The translations under genes were made by a program, and so were the position numbers. Below are positions 47,493 through 63,118 of a stretch of 64,000 nt of DNA, piece after piece. The stretch is from Clostridiales bacterium (lineage in GTDB: Bacteria > Bacillota > Clostridia > Christensenellales > Aristaeellaceae), in the NCBI GenBank assembly GCA_015056205.1, contig SVGS01000002.1, forward strand, positions 124,001 through 188,000, in the 5' to 3' direction. Every line of letters begins with the position of its first letter. The first letter of the stretch is position 1. The notes beneath the pieces are model-generated. The model did not search any database. It was given only the letters and a program-made list of their open reading frames with translations, and was not told the DNA's origin.

Positions 47493-47544
47493 AGAGCCTC
47501 CTCCTGACCGAGTCATCGTTTTTTACCATTTGTCCATTCATATT

Positions 47545-47558: not shown

Positions 47559-47605
47559 TTTCTTTGTTCTCATTATACCCGCTTTCCCCGGTTTGCGCAA
47601 CATCT

Positions 47606-47640: not shown

Positions 47641-47681
47641 GCTTCTTTTTTCGTCAGGCCGAAGCCTGTCGGGAATCTGAA

Positions 47682-49298
47682 TTACTTGACAGCAGGCGCT
47701 TCGTTGTAAACAGCCTGCAGCTTCTCGGCACGCTCGTCGATGATCGCCTGTCCGCCGGAAGCCAGATAGTCGGCCATGCCGGCATCGTAGACGGCGTCGA
47801 ACTGATCCACGGAAGCGGAAACCGCCTGGGTCAGCATGGCGTCGCGCTTCGCGGTCAGGCTGGTGCCGACGTCGGTCTCGGCGGTGATGTCGCCCACGTT
47901 GTAGTGCTTCGCGGTCCGTCCGTTGGCGATGGCAGCCTCATGAGCGCCAATCACGATCTCGGCGGGAACGGAAGAATAGTTCAGGGCGCGGGAAGCCTCG
48001 GTGGCTTCGCCGATGTTCAGGCCGTTCACGGTGATGGTGTAGTCGATGTTCATGCCGGAGTTCATGACCCACTCGCCGGTGGCCGGCAGGGTCTTGTAAG
48101 CGCCGTCCGCGGTGATCTCGTGGTTGACGCCTTCCTTACCGGTCTGCAGGAACTTGATGGTATCGGGGTTGGAGATGAAGTTCACATACAGCAGGGAGGC
48201 CAGGGGCTCCTTGTTGGTGGCGGGGAAGAAGACCTTCCGGTCGATCCGGTCCGCCAGATACTTCCGGGTGATGCCGGCTTCATTCTTGAAGCAGTCCACG
48301 GCCACAAACGCGGCGTCGGGGCCCACGTTCCGGACCAGGTTGGCTTCGATGGAGTCGTCATTGTTGCGGAAAGGATAGTCCCAGTTGTGGATGAAAGCGC
48401 CCACATAGCCGGCCTTCATCATGTCGTCCTCGGCGGTGCTGTCGGTGTAGAGGCCGAAATCCTTCCAGACCAGGCCTTCGTTGTACCACTTGTTCAGCAC
48501 GCGGATGCCTTCCTTGTAGTTCGGATACAGCAGATGACGGTCATCGTAGCCGTATACGTACAGGGTCGCGTCGTCCACATCTTCCGGAACCTTGCTGATG
48601 CTCAGCAGGTCGTTCCGCCAGCCGATATCGGTGGAGGTGCTGTAGGGAACCATCTTGGCAGCGTCGGCGCCCAGCAGGGTTTCGGCGTTGTCACGGAAGG
48701 CGACCAGGCAGTTGTAGAACTCTTCCTCGGTGGTGGGCAGGGCCAGACCCAGCTTGTCCAGCCAGTCCTTCCGGATGAAGGTGTTCAGACGGGCACGGTC
48801 GGCCAGCACGGCTTCCAGGGCCCACACGGTCTTGGTTTCCGGATTCTGATCGTAGTAGATGTTGTAGTCTTCCAGCAGGCCCCACAGATCGCCCAGCTGA
48901 TCCTTGTACTCGGTCAGATAGGGGTTCAGATCGATCACGCCGCCCATGTCGGCGAAGGTCTGAATCGTCGGATAGGAGTAGGTCACGCAGATGTCGGGAG
49001 CTTCGCCGGTGGCCAGCAGATTGTTGATGTCATCCACTTCCGTCCAGCGGCCGACAGATACGTATTCCACTTCGACGTTGTACTTCTCGAGCATGCCCTT
49101 CTTGATGTAGTCCGTGAAGGGATTGTTGGTGGGATCGCTTCCGCCGTCGTTGTTACGGTTGAAGATTTCCACCTTGATGTGGCGGGTTTCGGTGAACTTG
49201 CCGTCCACGAAGCCGTCGTCCGCCGCGAGCGCGGTGGAGAAGATCCCCATGGCAGCTACCAGGGCCAGGACCAGGACCAGTGACAGGAACCGTTTCAT
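47682..49298 (-). CDS. Extracellular sugar-binding protein of the second LplABC-type importer
   Basis: A 538-residue exported protein with the signal peptide MKRFLSLVLVLALVAAMGIF and likely cleavage after STALA; again no lipobox. The family-1 binding fold is of the large LplA type (VEYVSVGRWTEVDDINNLLA, GEAPDICVTYSYPTIQ, TFIRKDWLDKLGLALPTTEEE). ATG 49298 is favoured because GGAGG lies six bases upstream; ATG 49304 abuts it. It is the last gene of its operon, followed by a terminator. The ligand is probably an oligosaccharide processed by the neighbouring GH115-like or barrel enzymes. Confidence 0.9.
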   Translation of the reverse strand: MKRFLSLVLVLALVAAMGIFSTALAADDGFVDGKFTETRHIKVEIFNRNNDGGSDPTNNPFTDYIKKGMLEKYNVEVEYVSVGRWTEVDDINNLLATGEAPDICVTYSYPTIQTFADMGGVIDLNPYLTEYKDQLGDLWGLLEDYNIYYDQNPETKTVWALEAVLADRARLNTFIRKDWLDKLGLALPTTEEEFYNCLVAFRDNAETLLGADAAKMVPYSTSTDIGWRNDLLSISKVPEDVDDATLYVYGYDDRHLLYPNYKEGIRVLNKWYNEGLVWKDFGLYTDSTAEDDMMKAGYVGAFIHNWDYPFRNNDDSIEANLVRNVGPDAAFVAVDCFKNEAGITRKYLADRIDRKVFFPATNKEPLASLLYVNFISNPDTIKFLQTGKEGVNHEITADGAYKTLPATGEWVMNSGMNIDYTITVNGLNIGEATEASRALNYSSVPAEIVIGAHEAAIANGRTAKHYNVGDITAETDVGTSLTAKRDAMLTQAVSASVDQFDAVYDAGMADYLASGGQAIIDERAEKLQAVYNEAPAVK

Positions 49299-49386
49299 AG
49301 TCATTCCTCCTTCTTATTTCTTTCAGAGGGTTTCCGCCCTCAGAAATTCGCAGTTGCCGCTTTCCGCCGCCGGCGGACCGCGGAGA

Positions 49387-50304
49387 TCAGCCCTTGACCG
49401 CGCCGATCGTCACGCCGGTGACGAAATAGCGCTGCAGCCAGGGATAAACCACCAGGATCGGCACCGTGGCAAACATGACGGTGGCCATCTGAATGGTCTT
49501 GGATACGCCGTTGTTGAAGAAGCCTTCCTGCGCCACCTGCTCGCTGGTCTGCGTGGAGTTCTTGATCACGTTGTACAGCAGCAGCTGGATCGGCCAGTAC
49601 TTTTCGCTCTCGCTCTTTTTCAGATACATCAGGGCGTCGGAGAAACCGTTCCACCGGCCCACGGCGTAGAACAGCGCCAGGGTCGCCAGCACCGGCAGGC
49701 TCAGCGGCAGATACACCTTGAACAGCACCCGGATCGGGCCCGCCCCGTCGATTTCCGCCGCTTCCCGCAGGCTGTCCGGCACGCCGTAGAAGAAGCTGCG
49801 CATGATGATGACGTTGAACACGCTGATACAGTTCGGCACGATCAGCGCCCAGGGGGTGTTCAGAATGTGCAGGTTATTCAGCAGGATATAGGACGGAATG
49901 GTTCCGGCGCTGAAATACATGGTGAACAGGATAATGAAGTTGATCACCTTGCCGCCCCGCAGGTTGGAGTAAATCAGCGGATAGGCGGTGCAGACCGTCA
50001 GGAACAGGGACAAAAGCGTGCATCCCACCGTCAGGATCGCCGTCCACCCGAGGCTCCGGGTATACTTCTCCGTCGTCAGCACGGTCTGATAGGCTTCCAC
50101 GTTCCAGCCCTTCGGCCAGATAAACACATCGTTGCGCACCAGCGCGTCCGCGGAGGAAAGGCTGCAGGCCAGCACATGCACCATCGGCAGCAGGCAGACC
50201 AGCATGGCCAGCAGGCAGATGAGGGCAATGACCAGATCCCCCACGCGGGTTTTCCGGGATTTAATCATCCCGTCGTGCAGTTTCTTATTCTGTACGCTCT
50301 GCAT
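49387..50304 (-). CDS. Carbohydrate ABC importer permease, LplC type (second system)
   Basis: About 305 residues with six helices. The EAA loop is LREAAEIDGAGPIRVLFKVYLP. The end LQRYFVTGVTIGAVKG is nearly the same as in the first system's LplC. ATG 50304 fits GGAGG at eight bases; the upstream GTG at 50313 is too close. It lies 13 bases after its partner permease. Confidence 0.93.
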   Translation of the reverse strand: MQSVQNKKLHDGMIKSRKTRVGDLVIALICLLAMLVCLLPMVHVLACSLSSADALVRNDVFIWPKGWNVEAYQTVLTTEKYTRSLGWTAILTVGCTLLSLFLTVCTAYPLIYSNLRGGKVINFIILFTMYFSAGTIPSYILLNNLHILNTPWALIVPNCISVFNVIIMRSFFYGVPDSLREAAEIDGAGPIRVLFKVYLPLSLPVLATLALFYAVGRWNGFSDALMYLKKSESEKYWPIQLLLYNVIKNSTQTSEQVAQEGFFNNGVSKTIQMATVMFATVPILVVYPWLQRYFVTGVTIGAVKG

Positions 50305-50317
50305 TTCCTTCACCTCC

Positions 50318-51268
50318 TTACCAGATCCCGCGCTCGCCGAACCGCTTCGCCAGCGAGTTCGACAGCAGCAGGAAGATCACGCAGACCACGCTCTGGAACA
50401 GGCCCACCGCGGTGCTCAGGCTGAACTGGCTGCCCTGAATACCGCGCTCGTAAACGAAGATGGAAATCGTCTTGCTGGCGCCGACCACCAGCGGGTTGCT
50501 CAGGGTGAAGGGGCGGTCGAATTCAGAGCCCAGGATATGGCCCAGGTTCATGATCAGCAGCACGATAATGGTGGAGCGGATTCCCGGCAGCGTAATGTGC
50601 CAGATCTTCCGCAGCCGGCTGGCGCCGTCCACCTCCGCCGCCTCGTACAGCTCGGGGCTGATCCCGGTCAGCGCGGCCAGATAGATGATGGTGTTCCAGC
50701 CGCATTCCTTCCAGATGCCCAGAACGATATACATCGCCCGCCAGTTCCCCTCCGTCCCCAGGAAGGGTATGGAGGTTCCCATCAGCTTGTTGATCATGCC
50801 GTCGTTGGTGGCAAAGAGTCGCAGGGAGATGCTGGAAATGATGACCCAGCTCAGGAAGTGGGGCAGATACAGAATCGTCTGCGTCACCCGCTTGTACTTC
50901 GGGAAGGCCAGCTCATTGAGGAGCAGCGCCATGATAATGGGCATCGGCGTCCCGATTACCAGATCCAGCAGGTTCAGGAAAATGGTATTCCGGAGGGCGG
51001 CCAGGAAGTTCTGGTCCTGGAAAGCCTTGATGAACCATTCAAAACCGTTGTTCTTCGCCCACGGAACCTGCCACGGCGGCACAAGAATATTGTTCTTCTT
51101 GAAAGCCAGCAGGATATAGCTCATGGGGGTGTAACGGAAAATCACAAAAAAGGCGATCGGCAGAATTAAAAGCAGATAAAGCGTCCCGTACCGGCGCATA
51201 TACGTACCCCAGGACATTTTGTGCGGACGGATATCCCGACTTAATCCGACCTGTTTTACTTGACTCAA
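50318..51268 (-). CDS. Carbohydrate ABC importer permease, LplB type (second system)
   Basis: A permease of about 316 residues. The EAA loop is YEAAEVDGASRLRKIWHITLPG and the C-terminus AVGLFQSVVCVIFLLLSN is typical. A TTG at 51268 gives the N-terminus LSQVKQVGLSRDIR; the other system's LplC also starts MSQVKQ, and AGGAAG lies six bases before this TTG, whereas the ATG at 51274 abuts the ribosome site. It is the first gene of the second importer. No ATPase gene is nearby. Confidence 0.9.
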   Translation of the reverse strand: MSQVKQVGLSRDIRPHKMSWGTYMRRYGTLYLLLILPIAFFVIFRYTPMSYILLAFKKNNILVPPWQVPWAKNNGFEWFIKAFQDQNFLAALRNTIFLNLLDLVIGTPMPIIMALLLNELAFPKYKRVTQTILYLPHFLSWVIISSISLRLFATNDGMINKLMGTSIPFLGTEGNWRAMYIVLGIWKECGWNTIIYLAALTGISPELYEAAEVDGASRLRKIWHITLPGIRSTIIVLLIMNLGHILGSEFDRPFTLSNPLVVGASKTISIFVYERGIQGSQFSLSTAVGLFQSVVCVIFLLLSNSLAKRFGERGIW

Positions 51269-51450
51269 GAGCATCTTCCTTTCCCTGTGAAATTCCCGGA
51301 CAGCAGAAAATGGAGCATCCTGATTTTCCGTTTTATGTATATTGATTCGACCGCTGTTTTCCGAAATCCTGCCAAAGAGCGAAAAATATGATCGTACAAT
51401 TTCACTGCCGGCCGTTTTTTTGCTTTATCGGTATCTTCGCTGTTTTTTGC

Positions 51451-51479
51451 TTTACAGAGAGCAGGCAGTTTGATAAAAT
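51451..51479 (+). promoter_or_regulatory. Promoter of the rnf-nrf operon
   Basis: TTTACA (51451-51456) and TAAAAT (51474-51479) are 17 bases apart. Transcription would start near 51486. The divergent importer promoter was not clear in 51275-51450; the rest of that gap shows nothing else I can support. Confidence 0.6.
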
Positions 51480-51492
51480 AATTTAATAGGAA

Positions 51493-51543
51493 ATGAAAGA
51501 TGAAGTGACCTGGTCACGGGGAAAGGAGTCGTCATCTAAGTGA
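51493..51543 (+). promoter_or_regulatory. rnfC leader: 16-codon upstream frame and GTGACC-T-GGTCAC palindrome
   Basis: ATG 51493 opens a 16-codon frame ending in TGA 51541-51543, which overlaps the rnfC GTG by four bases (GTGA). Within it lies a perfect 13-base palindrome GTGACCTGGTCAC (51505-51517), about 20 bases after the transcription start, that could be an operator. The rnfC ribosome site AAAGGAG (51522-51528) is also inside this frame. Confidence 0.4.
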
Positions 51544-52889
51544 AAAATACGTTCCGCGGCGGTGTGCATCCGCAGGATCATAAGGATCTGAGCCGCGATG
51601 TGCCGCTGCGTCTGTTCAACCCGACGGGGGAAATGGTTTATCCCCTGAGCCAGCATATCGGCCGGCCCGCCAAGCCCCTGGTGAAAAAAGGAGATCCGGT
51701 GCTGGTCGGCCAGCGGATCGCGGAGGCGGACGGGTTTGTTTCCGCCCATATCCATTCCAGCTGCTCCGGCACGGTGAAGGCCGTGGAAAACCGCCGGATT
51801 CTGACCGGGCAGATGATGGACTGCATCGTGATCGATAACGACGGGCAGTTCACCCAGGTGGAAAGCTACGCCTCCCGGGATGACGCGAGCACCCTGAGCG
51901 ACAACGAGCTCCTGCAGCGGATTCAGGACGCGGGCATCGTCGGCCTCGGCGGAGCGGGGTTCCCCACCCACGTCAAGCTGAAGCCCAAAGATCCGGCCGC
52001 CATCCGCTACGTCATTGTCAACGGTGCGGAATGCGAGCCTTATCTGACCTGCAACGATCAGCTGATGCGCTCCCGCGGGCCGGAAATCATCACGGGCCTC
52101 GAGCTGGTGCTGCGCCTCTTCCCCAACGCGAAAGGCGTCATCTGCATCGAGAACAACAAGCCCGAAGCCATCAAGGCCATGAAAGAAGCCGTCAAGGGCA
52201 GGGCGCGGATGTCGGTGCGGCCGATGATCACCAAATACCCTCAGGGCGGCGAGCGCAGCCTGATTGAAGCGATCGCGGGCGCCAATTTCCCGGTCAGCAA
52301 GCTGCCGGCGGACGTCGGCTGCATCGTGGACAACGTGGGCACCCTCTACGCGATTCAGCGGGCGGTGCTGTACCGGGAGCCCCTGTTCAGCCAGGTCTTC
52401 ACCCTGACCGGCGAAGCCGTCGCTCAGCCGGGGAACTTTATTGTCCGCGACGGAACCAGCTTCCGCGAGCTGCTGGAGGCAAACGGCGGCGTCAGGCCCG
52501 GCGTCCGGGCCGTGAAGGCGCTGGTGGGCGGCCCCATGATGGGCATCGCCACTGGAAGCCTGGATGTGCCGATCCAGAAGCAGAACAACGGCCTGACCCT
52601 GCTCGCGGAGGATCCGGTGGAAAAGGCCGAAGCGCTGATGACCGCCTGCCTGCACTGCGGGCGCTGCACCACCGTCTGCCCCATGGGTCTCATGCCCCAG
52701 ATGATGTGCGACGCGGCGGACGCGGAGAACTGGGAGCGCTATGAAAAGAAGCTGTACGGTCTGGAATGCATCCAGTGCGGCAGCTGCACCTTCGCCTGCC
52801 CGGCGAAGCGGCCGCTGACCCAGACCTTTAAGAAAGCCAAGGCGGAAATCCTTGAGCGGAAAAAACGGGAAGGGGGGGACCGGAAATGA
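51540..52889 (+). CDS. rnfC: Rnf electron transport complex subunit C
   Basis: RnfC takes electrons from NADH-linked or ferredoxin-linked partners on the cytoplasmic side. The 449-residue protein has the RnfC N-terminus FRGGVHPQDHKDLS, a lipoyl-like SAHIHSSCSGTVKAVE segment, the NADH/FMN-type loop GLGGAGFPTHVKL and NGAECEPYLTCNDQLM, and two [4Fe-4S] motifs at 370-380 (CLHCGRCTTVC) and 410-420 (CIQCGSCTFAC). The start is GTG 51540. Its stop overlaps the rnfDG start (ATGA). Confidence 0.95.
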   Translation: MKNTFRGGVHPQDHKDLSRDVPLRLFNPTGEMVYPLSQHIGRPAKPLVKKGDPVLVGQRIAEADGFVSAHIHSSCSGTVKAVENRRILTGQMMDCIVIDNDGQFTQVESYASRDDASTLSDNELLQRIQDAGIVGLGGAGFPTHVKLKPKDPAAIRYVIVNGAECEPYLTCNDQLMRSRGPEIITGLELVLRLFPNAKGVICIENNKPEAIKAMKEAVKGRARMSVRPMITKYPQGGERSLIEAIAGANFPVSKLPADVGCIVDNVGTLYAIQRAVLYREPLFSQVFTLTGEAVAQPGNFIVRDGTSFRELLEANGGVRPGVRAVKALVGGPMMGIATGSLDVPIQKQNNGLTLLAEDPVEKAEALMTACLHCGRCTTVCPMGLMPQMMCDAADAENWERYEKKLYGLECIQCGSCTFACPAKRPLTQTFKKAKAEILERKKREGGDRK

Positions 52890-54457
52890 ACACCGATGTC
52901 ATGAACCTTTCCTCCGCGCCCCATCTTCGGGACCGGTGGACCACGCCCTTCATCATGCGGGTGGTTTTCCTGAGCCTGCTGCCAACCACCGTCGTCGGCA
53001 TCGTCGTTCACGGATGGCACGCGGCGGCGATCATCCTGCTGAGCATCGTCAGCGCGGTGCTGTCGGAAGCGGTTTTCTGCAAAATCTGCCGGAAGCCCCT
53101 GACCGTCTGGGACGGCAGCGCCGTCATCACCGGCCTTTTGCTGGCGCTGAGCCTGAGTCCCTCCACCCCGCTCTATATTCCGGTCATCGGTTCCGTCTTC
53201 GCCATCGTGGTCGCCAAGTGCTTCTTCGGCGGCCTGGGCAAAAACTTCATCAACCCGGCTCTGGCCGGCCGCTGCTTCCTGCTGATCAGCTTCGGCCGGG
53301 CGATGAGCACCTTCGCTGTGGACGGGGTTTCCTCCGCCACCCCGGTGGCTGAACTGGCCGCGGGCAACGCAGTGGATCTTACCGGCATGTTCCTGGGAAC
53401 CAGCAACGCGGTCATCGGGTCCAGCATTCTGGCCCTGCTGGTCGGCGGCCTGGTGCTGTGGAGCATGGATATCATTCACGGCCAGATCTGCTTCAGCGTG
53501 CTGGGAGCCTTCACGGTGTATCTGGGGCTTTTCGGCGGACAGGGTTTTGATCCCCTGTATCTGGCGGCTCATCTGTGCGGCGGCGGCGTGGTCATGGGCG
53601 CCTTCTTTATGGCGACGGACTATGTAACCAGCCCGGTCAGCCGCCTGGGGCAGTTTATTTACGGCTCCGTGATCGGTATCCTGGGCGCGATGTTCCGCCT
53701 CCACGGCTCCGCCGCGGACTCCTTCAGCTACAGCATCATTATCGGAAACCTGCTGACGCCCCTCATCGACACCTATATCGTCCAGAAACCCTTCGCCTAC
53801 CGCAAAAACGCGCTGCGCGGCCTGACGGCGGACAAGCGCCCCCTCTGGCAGCGGATTCCGAAGCCGGTTATCGCGCTGGTCGTGATCACAATTCTGGCCG
53901 GCCTGGCGCTGAGCGGCGTTTATACGGTGACCAAGGATACCATCGACGCGCAGCAGGAAGAAGCACGGCTGGCCAGCTACAAGGTGGTCTGCTCCGGGGC
54001 GGAAACCTTTGAGGCGATTCCCGCCGCGCAGGAAGCCATCGGGCAGCTGGCCGGCGGAACCTACGGCTCCTCCTTCGGCCGCGTCACCATCAACGAAGCC
54101 TACGCCGGCAAAACCGCCTCGGGCGAACTGGCCGGCTATGTGCTGAGCGTGACCAGCGCCGACGGCTTTGACGGAAACATCACGCTGGCCCTGGGCCTGA
54201 CGCCGGAAGGCGCCGTCACGGGCATCAGCTTTACCCAGCTGACGGAAACGCCCGGCATGGGCATGCGGGCGGATGAGGACAGCTTCAAGAGCCAGTTCAC
54301 CGGCAAGAACGCCGTGCTGAAGCTGGTCAAGGGCGACGTCTCCGCCGATAACGAAATCGCCGCCATCTCCGGCGCCTCGATTACCAGCGGCGCGGTCACA
54401 AACGCGGTCAGCGCCGGTATTGACTTCTGGCAGAATATCATCAGGGAGGCGAAATGA
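52886..54457 (+). CDS. RnfD-RnfG fusion protein of the Rnf complex
   Basis: One 523-residue chain carries two Rnf subunits that are normally separate. Residues about 10-305 are RnfD: many helices, NFINPALAGRCFL, and GVSSATPVA (147-155), the place where RnfD carries covalent FMN on Thr152; the usual SGATP is SSATP here. After a linker with KRPLWQRIPK comes a membrane helix (326-348) and then RnfG: ETPGMGMR (454-461) and the flavinylation motif SGASITS (495-501, probable FMN on Thr500). RnfG is on the outer face, so the fusion places the two covalent flavins in one polypeptide. It overlaps rnfC by four bases, and rnfE starts one base after its stop. A separate rnfG gene is absent from the operon, which supports a real fusion. 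Confidence 0.93.
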   Translation: MNTDVMNLSSAPHLRDRWTTPFIMRVVFLSLLPTTVVGIVVHGWHAAAIILLSIVSAVLSEAVFCKICRKPLTVWDGSAVITGLLLALSLSPSTPLYIPVIGSVFAIVVAKCFFGGLGKNFINPALAGRCFLLISFGRAMSTFAVDGVSSATPVAELAAGNAVDLTGMFLGTSNAVIGSSILALLVGGLVLWSMDIIHGQICFSVLGAFTVYLGLFGGQGFDPLYLAAHLCGGGVVMGAFFMATDYVTSPVSRLGQFIYGSVIGILGAMFRLHGSAADSFSYSIIIGNLLTPLIDTYIVQKPFAYRKNALRGLTADKRPLWQRIPKPVIALVVITILAGLALSGVYTVTKDTIDAQQEEARLASYKVVCSGAETFEAIPAAQEAIGQLAGGTYGSSFGRVTINEAYAGKTASGELAGYVLSVTSADGFDGNITLALGLTPEGAVTGISFTQLTETPGMGMRADEDSFKSQFTGKNAVLKLVKGDVSADNEIAAISGASITSGAVTNAVSAGIDFWQNIIREAK

Positions 54458-54458
54458 G

Positions 54459-55262
54459 ATGAAGAAGTATCTCGAACGGATAACCAACGGCCTCCTGAAG
54501 GAGAATCCGGTTCTGGTGCTGATGCTGGGCATGTGTCCGGCGCTGGCGGTATCCACCCGGGCTCTGAACGGAATCGGCATGGGTCTGAGCACGCTGGCCG
54601 TGCTGGTGCTGAGCAATCTGGTCATCAGTCTTCTGCGGAAGGTGATTCCGGATCAGGTCCGGCTTCCCGCCTACATCGTGATCGTCGCCAGCCTCGTCAC
54701 AGTGACGGAGCTGCTGATCAAGGCCTATCTGCCCAGCCTGTATGAATCCCTGGGAATCTATATTCCCCTGATCGTGGTCAACTGCATCATTCTCGGCCGG
54801 GCCGAAGCCTACGCCAACAAGCATACGCCGCTGCTCTCCGTCATGGACGGCATCGGCATGGGGCTTGGCTTCACGGCCGCCCTGACCCTGGCTGGCGCCC
54901 TGCGGGAGCTGCTTGGAGCCGGTACCATCTTCGGGGCGCGGGTCATGCCCGCGGGCTATGAACCCATGCTGATCTTCATTCAGCCTCCGGGAGCCTTCAT
55001 GATCTTCGCCCTGATCATCGCCGTAATGAACGCGATCGGGATTAAAACGCGGCAGCGCCAGCTGGTCGAAAGCGGCTGCGACGGAAACTGCGCCCTGTGC
55101 GCCACGGGCTGCGATCAGCCGAAAGCCGCCGCGGCTCAGCCGGCCGGAAAAATCACGGAGGCTCCGAAGGCCGTCAGTCCGGCCGGAGCCCAAAAGGCTG
55201 AAGCGAAACCGATTGAAACAAAACCGGCTGATGCGAAGAAGGAAGGGGGTGTGGAAGCATGA
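54459..55262 (+). CDS. rnfE: Rnf complex subunit E with a cysteine-containing C-terminal tail
   Basis: A 267-residue protein. Residues 1-200 are a six-helix RnfE/NqrD-type membrane protein: MCPALAVSTRALNGIGMG, NCIILGRAEAYANK and SVMDGIGMGLGFTAAL, with the membrane cysteines that hold an iron centre between RnfA and RnfE (C26, C109). Beyond residue 205 is an added tail: C207, C211, C214 and C218 in GCDGNCALCATGC, then about 45 residues rich in Ala, Pro and Lys. The four-cysteine group could bind a metal or cluster on the cytoplasmic side. ATG 54459 is used; its end overlaps rnfA by four bases. Confidence 0.93.
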   Translation: MKKYLERITNGLLKENPVLVLMLGMCPALAVSTRALNGIGMGLSTLAVLVLSNLVISLLRKVIPDQVRLPAYIVIVASLVTVTELLIKAYLPSLYESLGIYIPLIVVNCIILGRAEAYANKHTPLLSVMDGIGMGLGFTAALTLAGALRELLGAGTIFGARVMPAGYEPMLIFIQPPGAFMIFALIIAVMNAIGIKTRQRQLVESGCDGNCALCATGCDQPKAAAAQPAGKITEAPKAVSPAGAQKAEAKPIETKPADAKKEGGVEA

Positions 55263-55840
55263 ATCAGAGTCTGATCCTGATCATCGTAACCGGCGCCCTG
55301 ATCAACAATGTGGTGCTGAACCAGTTCCTGGGCATCTGTTCCTTCCTGGGCGTCAGCAAGCAGATGAAGGCCTCCGTCAGCCTGGGAGGCGCGGTCATCT
55401 TCGTCATCACCATCGCCTCGGCCGTAGCCAGCCTGATGTATGATTACATCCTGAAGCCCCTGAATATCGAGTACATGCGCACCATCATCTTTATCCTGGT
55501 GATCGCCGCGCTGGTGCAGATCGTGGAAATGTTCCTGAAGAAAAAATCCCCCGCGGTCTATCAGGCGCTGGGAATCTATCTTCCCCTGATCACCACCAAC
55601 TGCGCCGTGCTCGGTGTGGCGCTGAACAACGTGCAGGACGGCTACAATTTTATCCAATGCGTCGCCAGCGGATTCGGCACAGCCGTGGGCTATACCATCG
55701 CCATCGTACTGCTGGCCAGCATTCGCAGCCGGATCAACGAGAAGGACATTCCCGCTCCCCTGCGGGGCGCCCCCATCGTCATGATCGCTGCCGCCCTGAT
55801 GTCCATCGCGTTCATGGGCTTCGGCGGTCTGAGTTTCTAA
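55259..55840 (+). CDS. rnfA: Rnf complex subunit A
   Basis: This 193-residue six-helix membrane protein is homologous to RnfE and NqrE. It shows LINNVVLNQFLGICSFLG with the conserved cysteine, and TTNCAVLGVALNNV with the second. Together with RnfE it forms the membrane core that carries electrons and couples them to sodium or proton export. ATG 55259 overlaps the rnfE stop. Confidence 0.96.
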   Translation: MNQSLILIIVTGALINNVVLNQFLGICSFLGVSKQMKASVSLGGAVIFVITIASAVASLMYDYILKPLNIEYMRTIIFILVIAALVQIVEMFLKKKSPAVYQALGIYLPLITTNCAVLGVALNNVQDGYNFIQCVASGFGTAVGYTIAIVLLASIRSRINEKDIPAPLRGAPIVMIAAALMSIAFMGFGGLSF

Positions 55841-55856
55841 GAGGAGGGTCCGGAGA

Positions 55857-56654
55857 ATGACCATTCTGAGTACGACCCTGGTGATTGCCGCGGTGGGACT
55901 GATCGTCGGCTGCGGCCTGGTGTTCACCGCGAAAAAATTCGCCGTGAAAGTGGATGAAAAGGAAAGCGCCGTACGGGCCAAGCTGCCCGGCAACAACTGC
56001 GGCGCCTGCGGCTACGCCGGATGCGACGCGCTGGCAGGCGCGATCGCCCGGGGCGAGGCGCCGGTCAATGCCTGCCCGGTCGGCGGAAGCCCCGTGGCAA
56101 AGGAAATCGGCGCCATCATGGGCGTGGACGCCGCCGATGTGGAGCGGAAGGTCGCCTTCATCGCCTGCAAGGGCTCCTGCGAGGTGACCAAAAATCAGGG
56201 CAACTATATCGGGATCCGGGACTGCCGCGCCGCCGTCATGAGCGGAATCAGCGTAACGGACTGCAGCTATGGCTGCCTGGGCTTCGGCTCCTGCGCGGAG
56301 GTTTGCCCGGAAAACGCGATTGTGGTGAAGAACGGTGTGGCGGCGGTGAACCGGAACCGGTGCGTGGGCTGCGGGCTGTGCACCAAAGCCTGTCCGCGGA
56401 AACTGATCAGCCTGATCCCCGTCAGCAAAGTCGTTCAGGTTCAGTGTTCCAATCATGACAAAGGTCCCGCCGTGAAGAAGATCTGCTCCGCCGGCTGCAT
56501 CGGCTGCACGCTCTGCGTCCGCCAGTGTGAATTCGGCGCCATGACCTTCGACGGCAACCTGGCCCGGGTGGACAGCGAAAAATGCACCCTCTGCGGCAAA
56601 TGCGCCGCGAAGTGCCCCTCGAAGGTTATTACGACGACCGTCGGTCCGGTGTAA
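55857..56654 (+). CDS. rnfB: Rnf complex subunit B (ferredoxin-type)
   Basis: A 265-residue protein with one N-terminal helix and a cytoplasmic Fe-S arm. The order is: membrane anchor (5-25), the four-cysteine cluster with NNCGACGYAGCDALA and NACPVGG, then GSCAEVC (145-150) and three ferredoxin-like motifs CVGCGLCTKACP (169-180), CIGCTLCVRQC (214-224) and CTLCGKCAAKCP (243-254). It is the entry point for low-potential ferredoxin electrons. It lies 17 bases after rnfA and 17 before nrfA. Confidence 0.96.
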   Translation: MTILSTTLVIAAVGLIVGCGLVFTAKKFAVKVDEKESAVRAKLPGNNCGACGYAGCDALAGAIARGEAPVNACPVGGSPVAKEIGAIMGVDAADVERKVAFIACKGSCEVTKNQGNYIGIRDCRAAVMSGISVTDCSYGCLGFGSCAEVCPENAIVVKNGVAAVNRNRCVGCGLCTKACPRKLISLIPVSKVVQVQCSNHDKGPAVKKICSAGCIGCTLCVRQCEFGAMTFDGNLARVDSEKCTLCGKCAAKCPSKVITTTVGPV

Positions 56655-56671
56655 AGGAAAGAGGAAACAGC

Positions 56672-57973
56672 ATGAATCATTTCGAAAAAAAGCAGTGGAT
56701 CCGCCTGGCCTGCTGCGCGCTTGTCGTCCTGGCGGCAACCCTCTGGCTGTGCGGCGTATTCGGCGGCGGAAACGTCCGGTATCATCTGCGCAACCGGGGA
56801 AGCCTGGGGCCGCTGACGCGGGAGAACATCGCTTATCTGGATACCGCGGCTCCCGCGGCCACCGGGAAGGACGGAACGGTCAGCGCTTCCGACTGGGCGG
56901 AAACCTATCCCCGGATTGTGGCCACCATGGGGGACAACAGCAAAAACAGCTACGTCACCAGCTATCTGGAGCAGGATCCGTATCTGGTCAATATCTATGA
57001 AGGCTACGGCTTCGCGAAGGACTACGGCAGCGCCCGCGGCCATGCCTACACGCTGGAGGATGTGGCGAAAACGGAACGGCCCCATGCCAAGGCCAACTGT
57101 CTGACCTGCAAAACGCCGAACTTTGCCAAACTGGTGAACGATGAAGGCGTGGGGGTCTACAGCCGCCCCTTTGAAGAGGTCATGCCTCTGATGGAAGAAA
57201 ACATCTCCTGCTATTCCTGCCACGGCAACGACGCGGGAAACGGCGGCGCCATCGTCATCACCCACAGCTATGTGCAGAAAGCCCTGGGGGATCAGACGGC
57301 TTCCGTCTCTCCCAGCGTGCTGAGCTGCGGCCAGTGCCATATCGAATACTATTTCACCCCGGAAAACAGCGAAACCATGATGCCCTACCACAGCGTGGCG
57401 GAAATGACGCCGGAGGCGATCCTCGCCTACTATGACGCCATCGGCTTCAGCGACTGGACACAGCCAGGAACCGGCACGCCCATGCTGAAGGCGCAGCATC
57501 CGGAAATGGAGACCTTCCTGCAGGGCAAACACGCCGCCCTGCTGAACTGCGCCGACTGCCATATGGCGCTCACGATGGATGAGGACGGCACGGTATACCA
57601 CAGCCACTATCTGGACAGCCCGCTGAACGATCCCGCGCTGCTGGCCACCTGCGTCCGCTGCCACGGCGATACGGATATGAAGGCCATGGTGCAGAATCTG
57701 CAGGGCCGGATCACCGCGAAGGAAACGGCCGTCGGAAATAAGCTCAGCGCCCTGAAGGACAGGCTGACCGAGGCCGTGTCCGCCGAAAAGCTTTCGGACG
57801 AGGAACTGAACACCGTCCGGAAGCTTCATCGGGAAGCCCAGTGGTTCTTCGATTTCTGCTATGTGGAGAACAGCGAGGGCGCCCACAACAGCGAGCTGGC
57901 CATGCGCTGCCTGGAAACCTCGGAAAACCGAATTCAGGAAGCCATGAATCTGCTGGAAGGAAAAGCGTTTTGA
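56672..57973 (+). CDS. nrfA: Ammonia-forming cytochrome c nitrite reductase
   Basis: This enzyme reduces nitrite to ammonium with six electrons on the outer face. The 433-residue protein has five heme sites: the catalytic CLTCK (143-147) with its lysine ligand, and CYSCH (180-184), CGQCH (219-223), CADCH (293-297) and CVRCH (327-331). Active-site strands CHIEYYF and KAQHPEMETF are present. The N-terminal helix (10-30, ending CGVFGGGN) lacks a signal-peptidase site, so the protein is probably membrane-anchored. No nrfH or nrfB partner is in the operon; the genes before it are rnf and those after it mature cytochromes c. It is slightly shorter than the Escherichia coli enzyme (478). Confidence 0.95.
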   Translation: MNHFEKKQWIRLACCALVVLAATLWLCGVFGGGNVRYHLRNRGSLGPLTRENIAYLDTAAPAATGKDGTVSASDWAETYPRIVATMGDNSKNSYVTSYLEQDPYLVNIYEGYGFAKDYGSARGHAYTLEDVAKTERPHAKANCLTCKTPNFAKLVNDEGVGVYSRPFEEVMPLMEENISCYSCHGNDAGNGGAIVITHSYVQKALGDQTASVSPSVLSCGQCHIEYYFTPENSETMMPYHSVAEMTPEAILAYYDAIGFSDWTQPGTGTPMLKAQHPEMETFLQGKHAALLNCADCHMALTMDEDGTVYHSHYLDSPLNDPALLATCVRCHGDTDMKAMVQNLQGRITAKETAVGNKLSALKDRLTEAVSAEKLSDEELNTVRKLHREAQWFFDFCYVENSEGAHNSELAMRCLETSENRIQEAMNLLEGKAF

Positions 57974-57977
57974 AAGC

Positions 57978-58001
57978 ATTGAGGCCCGAAAGGGCCTCAA
58001 T
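57978..58001 (+). other. Intercistronic hairpin between nrfA and resB
   Basis: ATTGAGGCCC, a GAAA tetraloop, and GGGCCTCAAT form a perfect 10-base stem five bases after the nrfA stop. No T run follows (TGCTTGTC), so it is not a normal terminator. It may protect the 3' end of the rnf-nrf message or lower downstream expression. Confidence 0.65.
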
Positions 58002-58019
58002 TGCTTGTCAGCGATCACG

Positions 58020-59321
58020 ATGATGAAAGCACTGCGAAAAATCGGACGGTTCCTTTCTTCCATGCCCTTTGCCATCGGCCTCCTCTGCCTGCTGGCGGCC
58101 GCCTGCGCCCTCAGCAGCCTGGTGACCCAGGGGCAAAGCTATGACTGGTATGCGCAAACCTATGGCGAGCGGACCGCGGCCGTCATTCTGGCGCTGCACG
58201 CGGATGACGCCTATCACAGCGTCTGGTTCATCGCCATCAGCGGATTTCTGTGCCTGAATCTGCTGCTCTGCAGCCTGACCCGTCTGCCCGGCCTGATCCG
58301 GCGCGTCCGGGCCGGGCGGGATCCGCTCTCCCTCTCCGCCGGTGAAGCCACCGCCCGGGTTTCCGGCCTGCGGGATCCGGAAGCTTTCTTTCTGCGCCTG
58401 GGGCTGCGCCGGATCCGGAAAGGACAGGATCCGGAAGGCCGGGAGCTGCTGGCCGCGGCGCGGAACGCCGCCGGATACGCCGGTCCCTGGATCTGTCATC
58501 TCGGCGTACTGCTGCTGATCGCCGGCTTTGCCCTGGGGCAGATGACCAAACAGGAATCCGCGGTCTGGGGCCTGCCCGGTCAGACCCGGATGATCGAAGG
58601 CACCACCCTGTCCGTAACCATCGACGATTTCCAGGCCGCCAGGGGGACCGCGGGGCAGGTATCCCAGTATACCACAGCCTTCACGGTAACGGATCTTTCC
58701 GACGGCCGCCGGGAAAGTGCGTCCGCGGCCGTCAACGCGCCCGCTTCTCTCTTCGGCCGTAAGTTTTATCAGAACAGCACCGGCTGGGGCGCGGATGTCC
58801 GCGTGCTGAAGGACGGCAAACCCTGCCAGCTGGAACCGCTCTGCGTCGGCGAGGGGCTGGATATCAGGGATAAGGAAGGCCTGACCGTTCTTCTCCGGGG
58901 TTTCTATCCGGATTACCGGCCCGGAGCAGGCGGTATCCCCGGAAACGCCTCCGAAGAAATCCGGAATCCGGCCTATCTGTATATGGCGGTCTATCAGGGC
59001 CGCGTTCTGGGAATGAACGTGCTGACCGCCGGGGAGGAACTGACCATCGATGAATATACCGTCACCTTTGAAAATCCCAGGCTCTATACCCTGCTGGCCG
59101 TGAAACAGGATCGGTTTACCCTGCTGGCGCTCCTGGGAGGCGCCGTCACACTGGCCGGACTGGGGCTGGCCCTGTATTTCAGGCCCGAAAAGCTTCAGGC
59201 TGTCCGGGAACCGGACGGTTCCTGGACCGCTGCCGGCTGGTGCAGAAAGGGCGGCGCACTGTACGAGGAACGCTTCCTCGCCGCCGCGAAGGAAGATACG
59301 AAGGAGGTGCATCCGGAATGA
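58020..59321 (+). CDS. resB: Cytochrome c biogenesis protein ResB/Ccs1
   Basis: This 433-residue membrane protein works with CcsA to deliver heme to apo-cytochromes (system II). Three N-terminal helices and one near the C-terminus flank a large outer domain. FLSSMPFAIGLLCLLAAACALSS and YHSVWFIAISGFLCLNLLLC are the typical first helices. The best start is ATG 58020 (or 58023), although no clear ribosome site precedes it; a TTG at 58005 is also in frame. It overlaps ccsA by four bases. Its substrate is evidently the five-heme NrfA encoded just upstream, including the unusual CxxCK site. Confidence 0.9.
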   Translation: MMKALRKIGRFLSSMPFAIGLLCLLAAACALSSLVTQGQSYDWYAQTYGERTAAVILALHADDAYHSVWFIAISGFLCLNLLLCSLTRLPGLIRRVRAGRDPLSLSAGEATARVSGLRDPEAFFLRLGLRRIRKGQDPEGRELLAAARNAAGYAGPWICHLGVLLLIAGFALGQMTKQESAVWGLPGQTRMIEGTTLSVTIDDFQAARGTAGQVSQYTTAFTVTDLSDGRRESASAAVNAPASLFGRKFYQNSTGWGADVRVLKDGKPCQLEPLCVGEGLDIRDKEGLTVLLRGFYPDYRPGAGGIPGNASEEIRNPAYLYMAVYQGRVLGMNVLTAGEELTIDEYTVTFENPRLYTLLAVKQDRFTLLALLGGAVTLAGLGLALYFRPEKLQAVREPDGSWTAAGWCRKGGALYEERFLAAAKEDTKEVHPE

Positions 59322-60133
59322 CGCAGGCTGAAAACATCCTCTTTGTGATCGTTCTGACAGGCTATGCGCTGCTGATGGGGCTGAATTTCGCCTTTCTGGC
59401 GCTGAAAAAGGAGAAGCTCGCTTCCATAGCCCTGATTCTCCAGACAGCCGTGCTGGCGCTGCATACTGTCATGCTGGTGCTTCGGGGCATCGCCGCCGGC
59501 CGGCTTCCCATGACCAACCAGTATGAATTCGCCTCCTGCTTTGCCTGGGCGCTCTGCCTGACCAGCCTGATTTTTATCCGCAAATACCGTTTCCCGGTTC
59601 TGGGCGCCTTCGCGGCGCCGGTCATCCTGCTGATGATCGGCTATGCCGCCATGCAGAGCCGCGAAATTCATGAGCTGATGCCCGCGCTGCGCAGCAACTG
59701 GCTCGCCTTCCATGTCAGCACCGCCATTATCAGCTACGGTTCCTTCGGGGTCAGCTTTGTGCTCGGACTGCTGGAGCTGGCCCGCGGCAGGATGAAAAAG
59801 GACGGCTTTCTGGATCAGCATATGCCCGCGCCGGAAAAGCTGGATCTCATTGCCTACCGCAGCGTCAGCCTGGGAATGCTCTTTCTGACCATGACCATGC
59901 TGACCGGCGCGATCTGGGCGGAACAGGCGTGGGGCAGTTACTGGAGCTGGGATCCGAAGGAAACCTGGAGCCTCGTAACCTGGATTGTCTACGCGGTCTA
60001 CCTTCACCTGCGTCTTCGGCGAAACTGGCGCGGACGGGCGGCCGCCATCTTTGCCGTCGTCGGCTTCATCTGTGTGATCTTCACTTATATCGGCGTCAAT
60101 ACTTTCCTGCCCGGCATTCACAGCTACGCCTGA
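59318..60133 (+). CDS. ccsA: Cytochrome c assembly protein CcsA/ResC
   Basis: A 271-residue protein with eight helices. The heme-handling signature WGSYWSWDPKETW is at 205-217, and external histidines are in LAFHVSTAIISY (H132) and near the C-terminus (H268). With ResB it forms the system II cytochrome c synthase. ATG 59318 follows GGAGG and overlaps the resB stop. NrfA catalytic hemes sometimes need a dedicated CcsA-type enzyme (NrfI in epsilonproteobacteria), so the pairing with nrfA here is meaningful. Confidence 0.94.
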   Translation: MTQAENILFVIVLTGYALLMGLNFAFLALKKEKLASIALILQTAVLALHTVMLVLRGIAAGRLPMTNQYEFASCFAWALCLTSLIFIRKYRFPVLGAFAAPVILLMIGYAAMQSREIHELMPALRSNWLAFHVSTAIISYGSFGVSFVLGLLELARGRMKKDGFLDQHMPAPEKLDLIAYRSVSLGMLFLTMTMLTGAIWAEQAWGSYWSWDPKETWSLVTWIVYAVYLHLRLRRNWRGRAAAIFAVVGFICVIFTYIGVNTFLPGIHSYA

Positions 60134-60149
60134 AGAATCCGTGATTTTC

Positions 60150-60178
60150 TTGCAAATCCGCCCGATTTACGGTAGAAT
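60150..60178 (+). promoter_or_regulatory. Promoter of the anti-sigma/phosphatase pair
   Basis: TTGCAA (60150-60155) and TAGAAT (60173-60178) are 17 bases apart, about 44 bases before the ATG at 60222. Confidence 0.65.
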
Positions 60179-60221
60179 AAAAGGCGGTAAAAAACTGAAA
60201 GCGGTATGAGAGGAAAATATC

Positions 60222-60623
60222 ATGATTCTGGATGCATTGATCAGTAATCTGCCGGATGTGCTGGCGTTTGTGGACGAGTCGCTGGAAAAACGGGATTGTC
60301 CCATGCGGGTTCAGATGCAAATTGATATCGCCGTGGAGGAGATTTTTGTCAATATCGCTTCCTATGCGTATACTCCGGAGATCGGAAAAGCGGAAATCCT
60401 GATTCAGGAGGATCATGATCCCGAGGGAATCACCATCACCTTTATTGATACCGGCATCCCCTATGATCCGCTCGCCAAGCCGGATCCGGATGTTACCCTT
60501 TCCGCCAACCAGCGTCAGATCGGCGGTCTGGGGATTTATATGGTGAAAAAGAGCATGACGGACATGACCTACCGTTATGAGGAAAACCGGAATATCCTGA
60601 CCATTCGGAAGGAGTTTGCCTGA
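60222..60623 (+). CDS. HATPase-domain protein, anti-sigma factor (RsbW)-like
   Basis: A 133-residue stand-alone GHKL ATPase of the RsbW/SpoIIAB type. The N-box is VEEIFVNIASYAY, the G1 box DTGIPYDP and the G2 box IGGLGIYMVKK. Such proteins phosphorylate an anti-anti-sigma (STAS) partner or hold a sigma factor. Its stop overlaps the start of the SpoIIE-type phosphatase by one base, so the two form a partner-switch module. No STAS or sigma gene lies in the window. Confidence 0.9.
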   Translation: MILDALISNLPDVLAFVDESLEKRDCPMRVQMQIDIAVEEIFVNIASYAYTPEIGKAEILIQEDHDPEGITITFIDTGIPYDPLAKPDPDVTLSANQRQIGGLGIYMVKKSMTDMTYRYEENRNILTIRKEFA

Positions 60624-63118
60624 TGCTGGATCTTCTTCTGCGCATGTCCGGGGCAACGCTCTTCTATGTGCTGGTTACCGTGACGACCTGGCGGTTTACC
60701 TCCCGCCGGAAGCTGCGCCTCGGCGGAAAGATTCTGCTTGGGCTCCTTTTCGGCGGCTGTTCCGTTCTGTCCACTCATTTCGGCGTCAATTATGACAACA
60801 TGGTTCTGAACGTCCGGGACCTGGGGCCTTTGGCCGCCGCTCTTTTTTTTGACCCCCTTTCCGGAATCATTGCCGGCGTCATCGGCGGCGTGGAGCGGTA
60901 TCTGGCCAGCGTCCTGTGGAACATCGGAAACTATACCCGGGTCGCCTGCTCCGTCTCCACCGTTCTGGCCGGCCTGCTGGCCGCGCTGCTGAACCGCTTT
61001 ATTTTCCGCGGCAAAACGCCCCGGGCGCTGAACAGCTTCCTCATGGGCGCCGTGGTGGAAGTCTTCCATATGTACGCGGTCTTCCTGACCCACCGGGATG
61101 ACGTAACCACCGCTTATACGGTGGTCCGGACCTGCGCCCTCCCCATGATTGTCTTCACCGGTCTGGGGCTGGCCGTCTGCTCGATGATCATCAACGCGCT
61201 CTCCGGAAAGCGCCCGCTGAACTTTCGCCGGCAGGCCCCGGAACAGAAGGAGCTCTCCTATCAGTTCCAGTACTGGATGCTTGTCGCCACGAGCATCGTA
61301 TTCCTGATCAACTTTGCGATTTCCTACAGTCTGTCCACGCAGACCGCCATGGAAGAAGCCCGCTACAAACTGAACGAGTGGACCGAGGATATTAAAAAGA
61401 ATATAAACGCGTCCGCAAAAAGTCTGAGCGGACTGTCTGACTTTCTGAAGGACAGGATCAGCACGGACGCCAAGCTGGTTTCCCAGGGAATCCAGATCGC
61501 GGGCGGGGTGCGTCAGGCTTCGCCCGAACTGCTGGAGAAATACCGGATACTGACCAGCTCAACCGGCCTCTATACCATGGATTCCGACGGAAAGATGATT
61601 GCCGGCACAGGCGATCCGTGGTCGAATCTGAAAAATCCGGAGAGTCCCGATGATCCCCTGGGGCGCCTGCGCTCCGGCGGATTAACCGCCGATGTGATGT
61701 GGGATGACTCGAGCGAGAGCTGGTATAACGCGGTTGTTCCCTGCGGAGACGGATATGTCCGGCTCGCCTTTGATTTTTATCAGCAGGTCGAGAATTTCCG
61801 TTTTACCCAGCTGCAGGGGCTTTTCACCAATTATGAACTGACGGATGAGGCGGATTTTTATCTGTTTACCCGGTATCAGCTGGATCCCGCGAATCCGTCC
61901 GATTATGACACGTACCTCCTGGCCTCCTCGATGGCCGATCCGGTGACCTTTAATCTGACGGAGGCGCAGGAAGAACAGCTGCTGAAGCATGTGGGCGAAC
62001 CCGTCTTCTCTTCCGATCTCTTCGGCTATCCCGCGCTCTGCCGCTTCTCCCGGATTGACGATTTGCAGTATTCGCTGGTTCTGTATGACGCGGAGGAAGC
62101 TTTTTCGAGCCGGGACGCCCAGGTCTATGAAAACGCTTTTTCGGATCTGCTGGTCTTTGCCGCCATCTTCATCATGGTCACCATCCTGATGGAGTCCATG
62201 GTGGATGCTCCGCTGCATTCCATCAACGCCTCCCTGAACCGGATCATCAGCGGTGATCTGGACGAAACCCTTTCCGTTAATACCTCGATTGAATTTGATC
62301 ATCTTTCCAAAGATATTAACCAGACGGTCAGCACGCTGAAAACATATATCGGCGCCGCCGAGCAGCGGATGGCTCAGGAACTGCTGATGGCCAAAAACAT
62401 CCAGGCCGCGGCGCTGCCCCGGGCTTTCGATATTCCCCGTGATGAGGTCAGACTCTACGCGCTGATGGATCCGGCGAAGGAAGTAGGGGGAGATTTCTAT
62501 GACTTCTTCTTCGTCGGCCCCAACCGGCTGGCGCTGGTGATCGCCGATGTTTCCGGCAAGGGCATTCCCGCCGCCCTCTTCATGATGCGGTCCAAAACCG
62601 CGATCCGGAATCTGGCGGAAAACGGCAAATCCCCCGCGGAGATTTTTTCCCAGGCCAATCATCTTCTCTGCGACGGCAACGACGCGGAGATGTTCGTGAC
62701 CGCCTGGATCGGCATTCTGGATCTGAAAACCGGCGACATGGTCTGCGCCAACGCCGGCCATGAATATCCGGCCATTCTTCGGGCCGGCGGCGATTATGAA
62801 CTGCTGAAGGACAAGCACTCCCTGGCGCTGGCCGCCATGGACGGGATTCCCATGAAGGAGTATTCGCTCCGGCTGAATCCCGGGGACAGCCTCTTCGTCT
62901 ACACCGACGGCGTTCCGGAGGCGATCAACGAAGCGGTGGAACAGTATGGCACGGACCGGCTGCTGGAAGAGCTGAACCTGCATAAGGACAAGCCTCCGAA
63001 GATCCTGCTGCCCCTGGTACGGGAGAATCTGCGCCGCTTCGTGGGCAAGGCGGATCAGTTCGACGATATTACCATGCTGGGCGTCTCCTTTCTGGGGCAC
63101 ACGGAAAACCCGCTCTGA
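60623..63118 (+). CDS. Membrane-sensing PP2C/SpoIIE-type serine phosphatase
   Basis: An 831-residue protein. Residues 1-200 form a six-helix membrane domain resembling the 5TM-LYT sensor (LGPLAAALFFDPLSGIIAG, GVERYLASVLWN). A second transmembrane pair flanks an extracytoplasmic sensor of about 270 residues (250-515), then a HAMP-like linker with NRIISGDLDETL, and the SpoIIE/PP2C domain (about 590-825) with EVGGDFYDFF (620-629), ADVSGKGIPAA, YTDG (760-763) and DDIT (814-817), all the metal-binding acids. It should dephosphorylate a STAS protein and oppose the HATPase encoded just upstream. The outside signal is unknown. Confidence 0.9.
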   Translation: MLDLLLRMSGATLFYVLVTVTTWRFTSRRKLRLGGKILLGLLFGGCSVLSTHFGVNYDNMVLNVRDLGPLAAALFFDPLSGIIAGVIGGVERYLASVLWNIGNYTRVACSVSTVLAGLLAALLNRFIFRGKTPRALNSFLMGAVVEVFHMYAVFLTHRDDVTTAYTVVRTCALPMIVFTGLGLAVCSMIINALSGKRPLNFRRQAPEQKELSYQFQYWMLVATSIVFLINFAISYSLSTQTAMEEARYKLNEWTEDIKKNINASAKSLSGLSDFLKDRISTDAKLVSQGIQIAGGVRQASPELLEKYRILTSSTGLYTMDSDGKMIAGTGDPWSNLKNPESPDDPLGRLRSGGLTADVMWDDSSESWYNAVVPCGDGYVRLAFDFYQQVENFRFTQLQGLFTNYELTDEADFYLFTRYQLDPANPSDYDTYLLASSMADPVTFNLTEAQEEQLLKHVGEPVFSSDLFGYPALCRFSRIDDLQYSLVLYDAEEAFSSRDAQVYENAFSDLLVFAAIFIMVTILMESMVDAPLHSINASLNRIISGDLDETLSVNTSIEFDHLSKDINQTVSTLKTYIGAAEQRMAQELLMAKNIQAAALPRAFDIPRDEVRLYALMDPAKEVGGDFYDFFFVGPNRLALVIADVSGKGIPAALFMMRSKTAIRNLAENGKSPAEIFSQANHLLCDGNDAEMFVTAWIGILDLKTGDMVCANAGHEYPAILRAGGDYELLKDKHSLALAAMDGIPMKEYSLRLNPGDSLFVYTDGVPEAINEAVEQYGTDRLLEELNLHKDKPPKILLPLVRENLRRFVGKADQFDDITMLGVSFLGHTENPL

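Follow-up and report, generated by a model that had tools for sequence, protein, structure and literature searches.

An rnf-nrfA operon in a Clostridiales bacterium: a probable quinone-free electron route from Rnf to an exchangeable terminal reductase

Results

The rnf-nrfA operon

The operon described here places nrfA, which encodes a pentahaem cytochrome c nitrite reductase by family, directly behind a complete set of rnf genes. It lies in a 64,000-nucleotide stretch of Clostridiales bacterium DNA (assembly GCA_015056205.1, contig SVGS01000002.1, positions 124,001 to 188,000), the whole of which is called the window. The genes rnfC, a fused rnfDG, rnfE, rnfA, rnfB, nrfA, resB and ccsA run head-to-tail on the + strand from 51540 to 60133, neighbours either overlapping by 4 bases or being separated by gaps of up to about 46 bases (Table 1). 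Open reading frames (ORFs) were taken from an ORF listing and the gene starts within them were our choice. All eight genes were identified by Pfam and all but resB also by NCBIfam, which bears out the gene order, common direction and close spacing reported in a preliminary description of this DNA. All six Rnf subunits (RnfABCDGE) are present, with RnfD and RnfG fused. The RnfG model TIGR01947 scored 87.9 bits, below its cut-off of 102, and the FMN_bind domain (PF04205) was above its own cut-off. In RnfDG a motif search gave two candidate sites, SSATPV (residue 149) and SGASIT (residue 495), at which covalent attachment of flavin mononucleotide (FMN) is predicted. The preliminary description also had the genes transcribed from a single promoter. 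A candidate site precedes rnfC, but the scan of the operon region returned 5 promoter-like matches compared to 2.9 ± 1.8 in shuffled sequences, and the single promoter remains an assumption.

Table 1. Positions of the operon genes and of the candidate promoter in the window
Feature	Position	Strand	Evidence and remarks
Promoter-like site, TTTACA-17-TAAAAT with TG	51451..51479	+	Candidate operon promoter; site count not above chance
rnfC	51540..52889	+	GTG start, AAAGGAG ahead; TIGR01945 493.8 bits; genome's only RnfC_N match
rnfDG fusion	52886..54457	+	PF03116 (RnfD/NQR2) and PF04205 (FMN_bind) in a single frame
rnfE	54459..55262	+	TIGR01948 249.9 bits
rnfA	55259..55840	+	TIGR01943 255.8 bits
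rnfB	55857..56654	+	TIGR01944 102.6 bits; FeS and Fer4 domains
nrfA, pentahaem nitrite reductase by family	56672..57973	+	PF02335 263.9 bits, 3.6e-78
resB, cytochrome c maturation	58020..59321 (alternative TTG 58005)	+	PF05140 145.9 bits; no NCBIfam match
ccsA (CcsB-type), cytochrome c haem lyase	59318..60133	+	PF01578 185.8 bits; TIGR03144 262.4 bits

Identity of NrfA

The window NrfA contains four CxxCH motifs and one CxxCK, and aligns with the NrfA chains 3ubr, 2vr0, 2j7a and 1gu6 of the PDB. It falls under the curated NCBIfam cut-offs for NrfA (220.3 against 595 and 185.5 against 692.5 bits), and is thus a divergent member. The motifs ARGHAY, IEYYF and KAQHPE supply the Arg, Tyr and His which we take to be active-site residues, and a KxQ which is presumably the calcium-site motif. 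The Arg, the first Tyr (of EYY) and the His were identical in all 139 aligned NrfA segments. In the 105 sequences from near relatives and the same genus the Arg, first Tyr, Lys, Gln and His were all kept, and there was one substitution, of the second Tyr. The segments were picked by CxxCK and CxxCH, so the presence of those two motifs is no test. By family the protein is a cytochrome c nitrite reductase, with nitrite-to-ammonium activity predicted; membership of another multihaem family was rejected on the motifs and the PDB matches. Its N-terminus is hydrophobic as judged by eye and was taken as a membrane anchor. Pfam found no FMN_bind domain in it.

Donors, quinones and haem in the host genome

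The host genome (G000; 2.94 Mb, 91 percent complete) holds one NrfA, and its sole RnfC match is that of the operon. The preliminary description had supposed that NrfA receives its electrons without a quinol dehydrogenase or quinones, and the gene content agrees: a quinol-linked donor elsewhere in the genome together with complete quinone synthesis would have spoken against it, and neither was matched. The NrfH/NapC family (PF03264) was absent from all 100 genomes searched, the host included; among 14 control genomes it matched one, E. coli. NrfD (PF03916) was absent from the nine genomes searched, again including the host, and matched 4 of the 14 controls. No UbiA-family prenyltransferase was matched in the host genome, as against all 14 controls. 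The common quinones need UbiA-type prenyltransferases, and the cell therefore should not make menaquinone. A hidden quinol dehydrogenase was rejected on the absence of PF03264 and NrfD from the genomes searched. A hidden multihaem donor was also rejected: CxxCH codon patterns in the genome, examined among the matches listed, were not in excess (124 compared to 134 for the reversed pattern, no search being aimed at NrfB), and no second multihaem ORF occurs in the DNA examined at the 80 related loci described below.

A single ApbE, the enzyme expected to attach the FMNs, is encoded outside the operon (G000:C5), and its N-terminus looks by eye like a signal peptide. The molybdopterin oxidoreductase domain of nitrate reductases (PF00384) had no match in nine genomes, the host included (11 of 14 controls match), and nitrite should therefore come from outside the cell. 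Ferrochelatase likewise had no match in G000, G001, G002, G006, G022, G035, G037, G044 and G068, as compared to 8 of 14 controls. All of these except G037 have NrfA, so haem would be obtained by uptake or by a ferrochelatase-free route.

Recurrence of the rnf-nrfA arrangement

The best 80 of 272 NrfA relatives in GTDB contigs were surveyed; being picked for closeness to the window NrfA, they describe one clade and not NrfA at large. In 76 of them nrfA is preceded on its own strand by rnfB, at a median gap of 51.5 bases and within 300 bases in 69, so that the adjacency noted in the window recurs and a chance neighbourhood was rejected. Two of the four remaining contigs start 4 and 66 bases before nrfA. 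All nine segments are in the window order in 62 of the 80 loci, which takes the gene order beyond chance; 15 of the others are cut by a contig end, L088 is without resB and ccsA, and L093 and L095 are without rnf. RnfD and RnfG share one open frame in all 70 testable related loci. No second ORF with at least three CxxCH motifs was found in any of the 80 loci, within the 3.3-21 kb examined at each. The near relatives come mostly from ruminant gut metagenomes, their labels naming goat, sheep, cattle, roe deer, water buffalo, yak and rumen. The taxonomic labels of these metagenome-assembled genomes range from Clostridia, Lachnospiraceae and Oscillospiraceae to Solobacterium and Spirochaetales, and may be wrong.

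Three loci depart from the common pattern. In L088:10001-21278 there is no resB or ccsA match in 10 kb downstream of the rnf-nrfA genes, and maturation of its NrfA must be encoded elsewhere. In L080:9974-12424 an open frame of 817 amino acids contains two successive NrfA matches, ie a tandem nrfA. On the Spirochaetales-labelled contig of L084 (11735-12552) the ccsA match is in three overlapping pieces, perhaps because of a frameshift or a sequencing error.

A contrast set of 30 loci from other classes was drawn from 77 NrfA-positive genomes among 348 genomes of the phylum. Here, in 29 of the 30 loci, a neighbour of NrfA is an NrfH-like ORF containing three or four CxxCH motifs, and UbiA was present in all three NrfH-type genomes tested. 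Relatives of resB and ccsA adjoin nrfA in four or five of these loci (L161, L167-L169, L172). Across the class NrfA was found in only 4 of 392 genomes, the host included, so the adjacency cannot be quantified at that level.

Within the genus, NrfA is present in 24 of 45 genomes, counting the host, and adjoins rnf in 20 of these 24 (the locus of G005 was pieced together from two contigs). UbiA is absent from 17 of the 20, among them G001, G002, G022, G035 and G044, each of which is 97-99 percent complete.

NrfA tree and flavin fusions

A single FastTree was built from 139 automatically cut NrfA segments, with one NrfH-type tip as its root. The truncated NrfA pieces L140 and L141, both from G005, were left out, the longer L194-L196 replaced L173-L175, and at least two genes were probably entered twice (L028/L130, L044/L132). 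All 109 sequences outside the 30 phylum loci form one group with support of 1.0. Nested in it is a group with support of 0.958 that unites 101 of 101 sequences, namely the window, 20 from the genus and its kin, and all 80 from the contigs; this rnf-type group also takes in the four contig loci that showed no rnf.

Of the 20 loci of the genus in which nrfA adjoins rnf, 17 have FMN_bind motifs in the NrfA open frame itself, before, after or flanking the haem domain. G005 has an eighteenth such fusion, cut at contig ends, and the NrfA of the window and that of G006 (L130) have no FMN motif. Pfam scanning of 12 fused NrfA gave two to five FMN_bind stretches in ten and one each in L135 and L101; in the same-genus subset, nine of ten have two to five and the tenth is L135. 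In several fusions the FMN domains sit between an N-terminal stretch like that of the window NrfA and the haem domain. Three proteins combine FMN_bind, FAD_binding_2 and NrfA in one polypeptide (L126:2241-5924, L135:8267-11218 and L101:8231-11200), and by their domain content would join a nitrite reductase to a fumarate-reductase-like domain, giving two reductase domains per protein. The 17 fusions of the genus group together (support 0.901). L101, which alone among the 80 contig loci is a fusion bearing the motif, has a separate position within the near clade, and L139 falls outside that clade. On this tree the fusion of NrfA to flavin domains seems to have arisen at least three times. The fusions are our strongest argument that a flavin is the donor of the rnf-type NrfA.

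The L139 protein (L139:5856-9113) is an NrfA of a different clade with five FMN_bind stretches fused to it, and no rnf lies within the 17 kb examined.

An exchangeable slot behind rnfB

RnfC was found in 17 of the 21 NrfA-negative genomes of the genus; five of the genomes (G017, G018, G025, G031 and G039) have it as part of a less closely related Rnf (39-58 percent). At locus L178 in G037 the Rnf proteins are 85-98 percent identical to those of the window. Behind its rnfB, nrfA begins but meets a stop after 39 codons, nothing corresponds to window positions 56799-60190 (the rest of nrfA, resB and ccsA), and the downstream genes resume after 96 unmatched bases. No NrfA was found elsewhere in G037, a genome that is 84 percent complete. 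The joint absence of resB, ccsA and the body of nrfA ties the two maturation genes to NrfA.

In other relatives the same place is taken by different proteins. In L179 and L180 it holds a multi-FMN protein followed by a reductase with FMN_bind and FAD_binding_2 domains, and an NrfA-like start is detectable in L179. In L182 a multi-FMN protein itself has an NrfA-like start, with a GDSL-type protein behind it. An FMN_bind and FAD_binding_2 protein lies between rnfB and nrfA in L098, L099 and L074, accompanied in L074 (6504-7838) by tatA and tatC. In L177, L183 and L185 no ORF with an FMN motif or several CxxCH motifs follows rnfB in the stretch examined, as judged by motif search and not by Pfam. 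Read from their domains, the contents of the slot thus appear to be NrfA, NrfA-FMN_bind, a multi-FMN protein with a fumarate-reductase-like one, or a single polypeptide that combines both reductases; in some relatives no reductase is recognised there.

Genes flanking the operon

Directly behind ccsA, at 60222-63118, Pfam recognised an anti-sigma-factor-like HATPase and a 5TM-LYT/SpoIIE phosphatase, which may form a partner-switching unit. It is these genes that resume behind rnfB in L178, where nrfA, resB and ccsA are missing. On the other side, divergent from the operon on the - strand (45705-51274), are genes for a large protein, a solute-binding-like protein and two permease-like proteins, named from reading their translations.

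Discussion

Proposed electron path

We consider it likely that in this organism Rnf has a branch outside the membrane in which covalent flavins lead to a terminal reductase that can be exchanged, NrfA in this case, and that neither a quinone nor NrfH takes part. Electrons would enter Rnf from reduced ferredoxin, or from NADH (reduced nicotinamide adenine dinucleotide) running in reverse. From ferredoxin they would pass by RnfB and the iron-sulphur centre of RnfA/E to the FMN of RnfG outside the membrane, and from there to the haems of the membrane-anchored pentahaem NrfA, which would reduce external nitrite to ammonium. ResB and CcsA would mature NrfA, its CxxCK haem included, and the ApbE encoded outside the operon would attach the FMNs. 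NrfA would be one occupant of the exchangeable slot behind rnfB. With ferredoxin at about -0.4 to -0.5 V and the nitrite/ammonium couple at +0.34 V, the drop in potential is ample. Electrons moving outward lower the membrane potential, so that by our reasoning energy would be gained only if ions are exported while electrons travel the outward half of the path through Rnf.

The preliminary description had electrons pass from ferredoxin through Rnf straight to NrfA, coupling ion export to nitrite reduction without quinones. This stands in part: the lack of known quinol donors, the presence of ApbE, the adjacency in 76 of 80 loci and the FMN_bind fusions support it. The path and direction of the electrons, direct contact between the proteins and the attachment of haem and flavin are what we infer from these genes, and an ion gradient may be kept or built.

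Several observations weigh against the proposed path. The window NrfA has no FMN domain, so the step from flavin to haem has to be made from one protein to another. Some relatives keep Rnf but have no nrfA. Four genomes of the same genus (G009, G013, G023 and G032) carry a more distant NrfA, 43-46 percent identical, with no rnf within the 6-17 kb examined, and L093 and L095 have no rnf in the 2.6 and 3.9 kb upstream of nrfA. The three other NrfA-positive genomes of the class contain four NrfA loci with neither an NrfH-like ORF nor rnf within the 4-14 kb examined; each has RnfC elsewhere and one (G622) is without UbiA. NrfA of the wider clade can evidently be supplied without rnf adjacency. A UbiA-family protein was found in three of the rnf-nrfA genomes (G011, G033 and G038), and the absence of ferrochelatase leaves the haem supply of NrfA unexplained.

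Other explanations

The persistence of Rnf in NrfA-negative relatives, such as those with L177, L178, L183 and L185, indicates that NrfA is an optional occupant and that Rnf has another use, presumably as ferredoxin:NAD+ oxidoreductase, a role it probably retains in the window organism. If that were its sole role, NrfA might be co-expressed for detoxification of nitrite and draw on an unrelated donor such as an exported flavoprotein that has escaped recognition, an extracellular reductant or a soluble carrier, as the NrfA without adjacent rnf in the wider clade would also allow. We think this unlikely, as the searches for PF03264 in 100 genomes, for NrfD in nine and for CxxCH patterns in the host genome gave no other donor family and the NrfA-FMN_bind fusions beside rnf point to a flavin donor. 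Ordinary quinol-linked respiration, with menaquinone taken from neighbours and an NrfH that was missed or has diverged, would fit the UbiA-family protein in 3 of the 20 rnf-nrfA genomes, and the host genome is 91 percent complete. It is nevertheless highly improbable given the absence of the NrfH family from 100 genomes, the near-complete NrfA-positive genomes without UbiA (G001, G002, G022, G035, G044), and the lack of a second multihaem ORF in the stretches examined at all 80 loci.

A different question is whether the branch stores energy. It may be dissipative, ie it may drain excess electrons from ferredoxin or NADH to nitrite with nothing conserved, a version which is compatible with the proposed electron path and differs from it in the energy step only. 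By our charge accounting an outward electron would lower the membrane potential while NrfA consumes protons outside; the lack of PF00384 makes the supply depend on external nitrite, and a near relative is missing the nrfA-resB-ccsA block. On the other side, the Rnf of Methanosarcina feeds an outside cytochrome, MmcA, and a title cited in PMC11024163 calls that Rnf sodium-translocating. All Rnf subunits are also kept, though possibly for the NAD branch. We regard a dissipative branch as a serious possibility, but lean slightly away from it.

Relation to known systems

The nearest precedent for Rnf feeding a multihaem cytochrome is, by analogy, Rnf-MmcA of Methanosarcina acetivorans, in which a multihaem c cytochrome of the rnf operon takes electrons from Rnf; according to the parts of PMC11024163 consulted, MmcA is a heptahaem protein related to the octahaem tetrathionate reductases, supplies methanophenazine or metals, and does not occur in Bacteria. 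Both systems have an rnf-linked multihaem cytochrome, but the window partner is of family PF02335, with five haem motifs, and is a nitrite reductase by family. As compared to NrfHA and NrfABCD, the window has the same catalytic subunit family with its CxxCK haem, in a genome without a match for NrfH, NrfD or UbiA.

Méheust et al. (2021; PMC8238504), as far as the text was available to us, described, for Christensenellales, multi-flavinylated RnfGs that also contain a multihaem domain, and suggested that the Rnf path bifurcates towards acceptors on the outside. These are probably the fused form found in this genus, with FMN_bind repeats and a multihaem domain beside rnf. Their systems have more than one FMN_bind in the partner protein, whereas the window NrfA has none. 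In its main text the terms NrfA and nrf do not occur and nitrite appears only with NirS and NapH-like systems; neither an unfused rnf-nrfA operon nor the missing NrfH and quinone genes were met in the portion seen. The same source describes flavinylated extracytosolic reductases (FMN_bind with FAD_binding_2, fumarate-reductase-like), where a covalent FMN domain feeds an exported reductase. Proteins of that type occupy or share the slot behind rnfB in relatives, whereas the window reductase is a cytochrome beside a complete Rnf.

In the available text of a 2024 preprint on flavinylation (PMC10979944) the word nitrite does not occur. In surveys of the rumen, to the extent accessible, nrfA serves as a marker gene. 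Selenomonas, Wolinella and Bacteroidetes are named in PMC6776011, which contains no mention of rnf, and Prevotella and Bacteroides in PMC12918512, while PMC10811737 names no host. Among the matches listed in our literature search, judged by titles and the beginnings of abstracts, no rnf-nrfA operon is described; three papers in which both terms occur (PMC10434189, PMC5701242 and PMC4595116) were not covered. Within that literature, the fused form has been glimpsed before, while the identity of the cytochrome as NrfA, the unfused operon, the setting free of NrfH and quinones and the exchangeable slot were not met.

Implications

If the proposed path is true, nitrite respiration in these bacteria proceeds without quinones or NrfH and draws directly on the ferredoxin/NADH pool. 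Marker-gene studies of the ruminant gut would count the rnf-type NrfA as ordinary nrfA, which matters for the feeding of nitrate, for nitrite poisoning and for the competition with methanogens. The operon also offers a natural system for asking if Rnf pumps ions when electrons exit at RnfG. More tentatively, Rnf may be a quinone-free respiratory hub across a large group of anaerobes of the rumen and gut. An exchangeable, flavin-wired slot would then couple the oxidation of ferredoxin to nitrite, fumarate-like acceptors or the two in one polypeptide, and Rnf would be the site at which energy is conserved.

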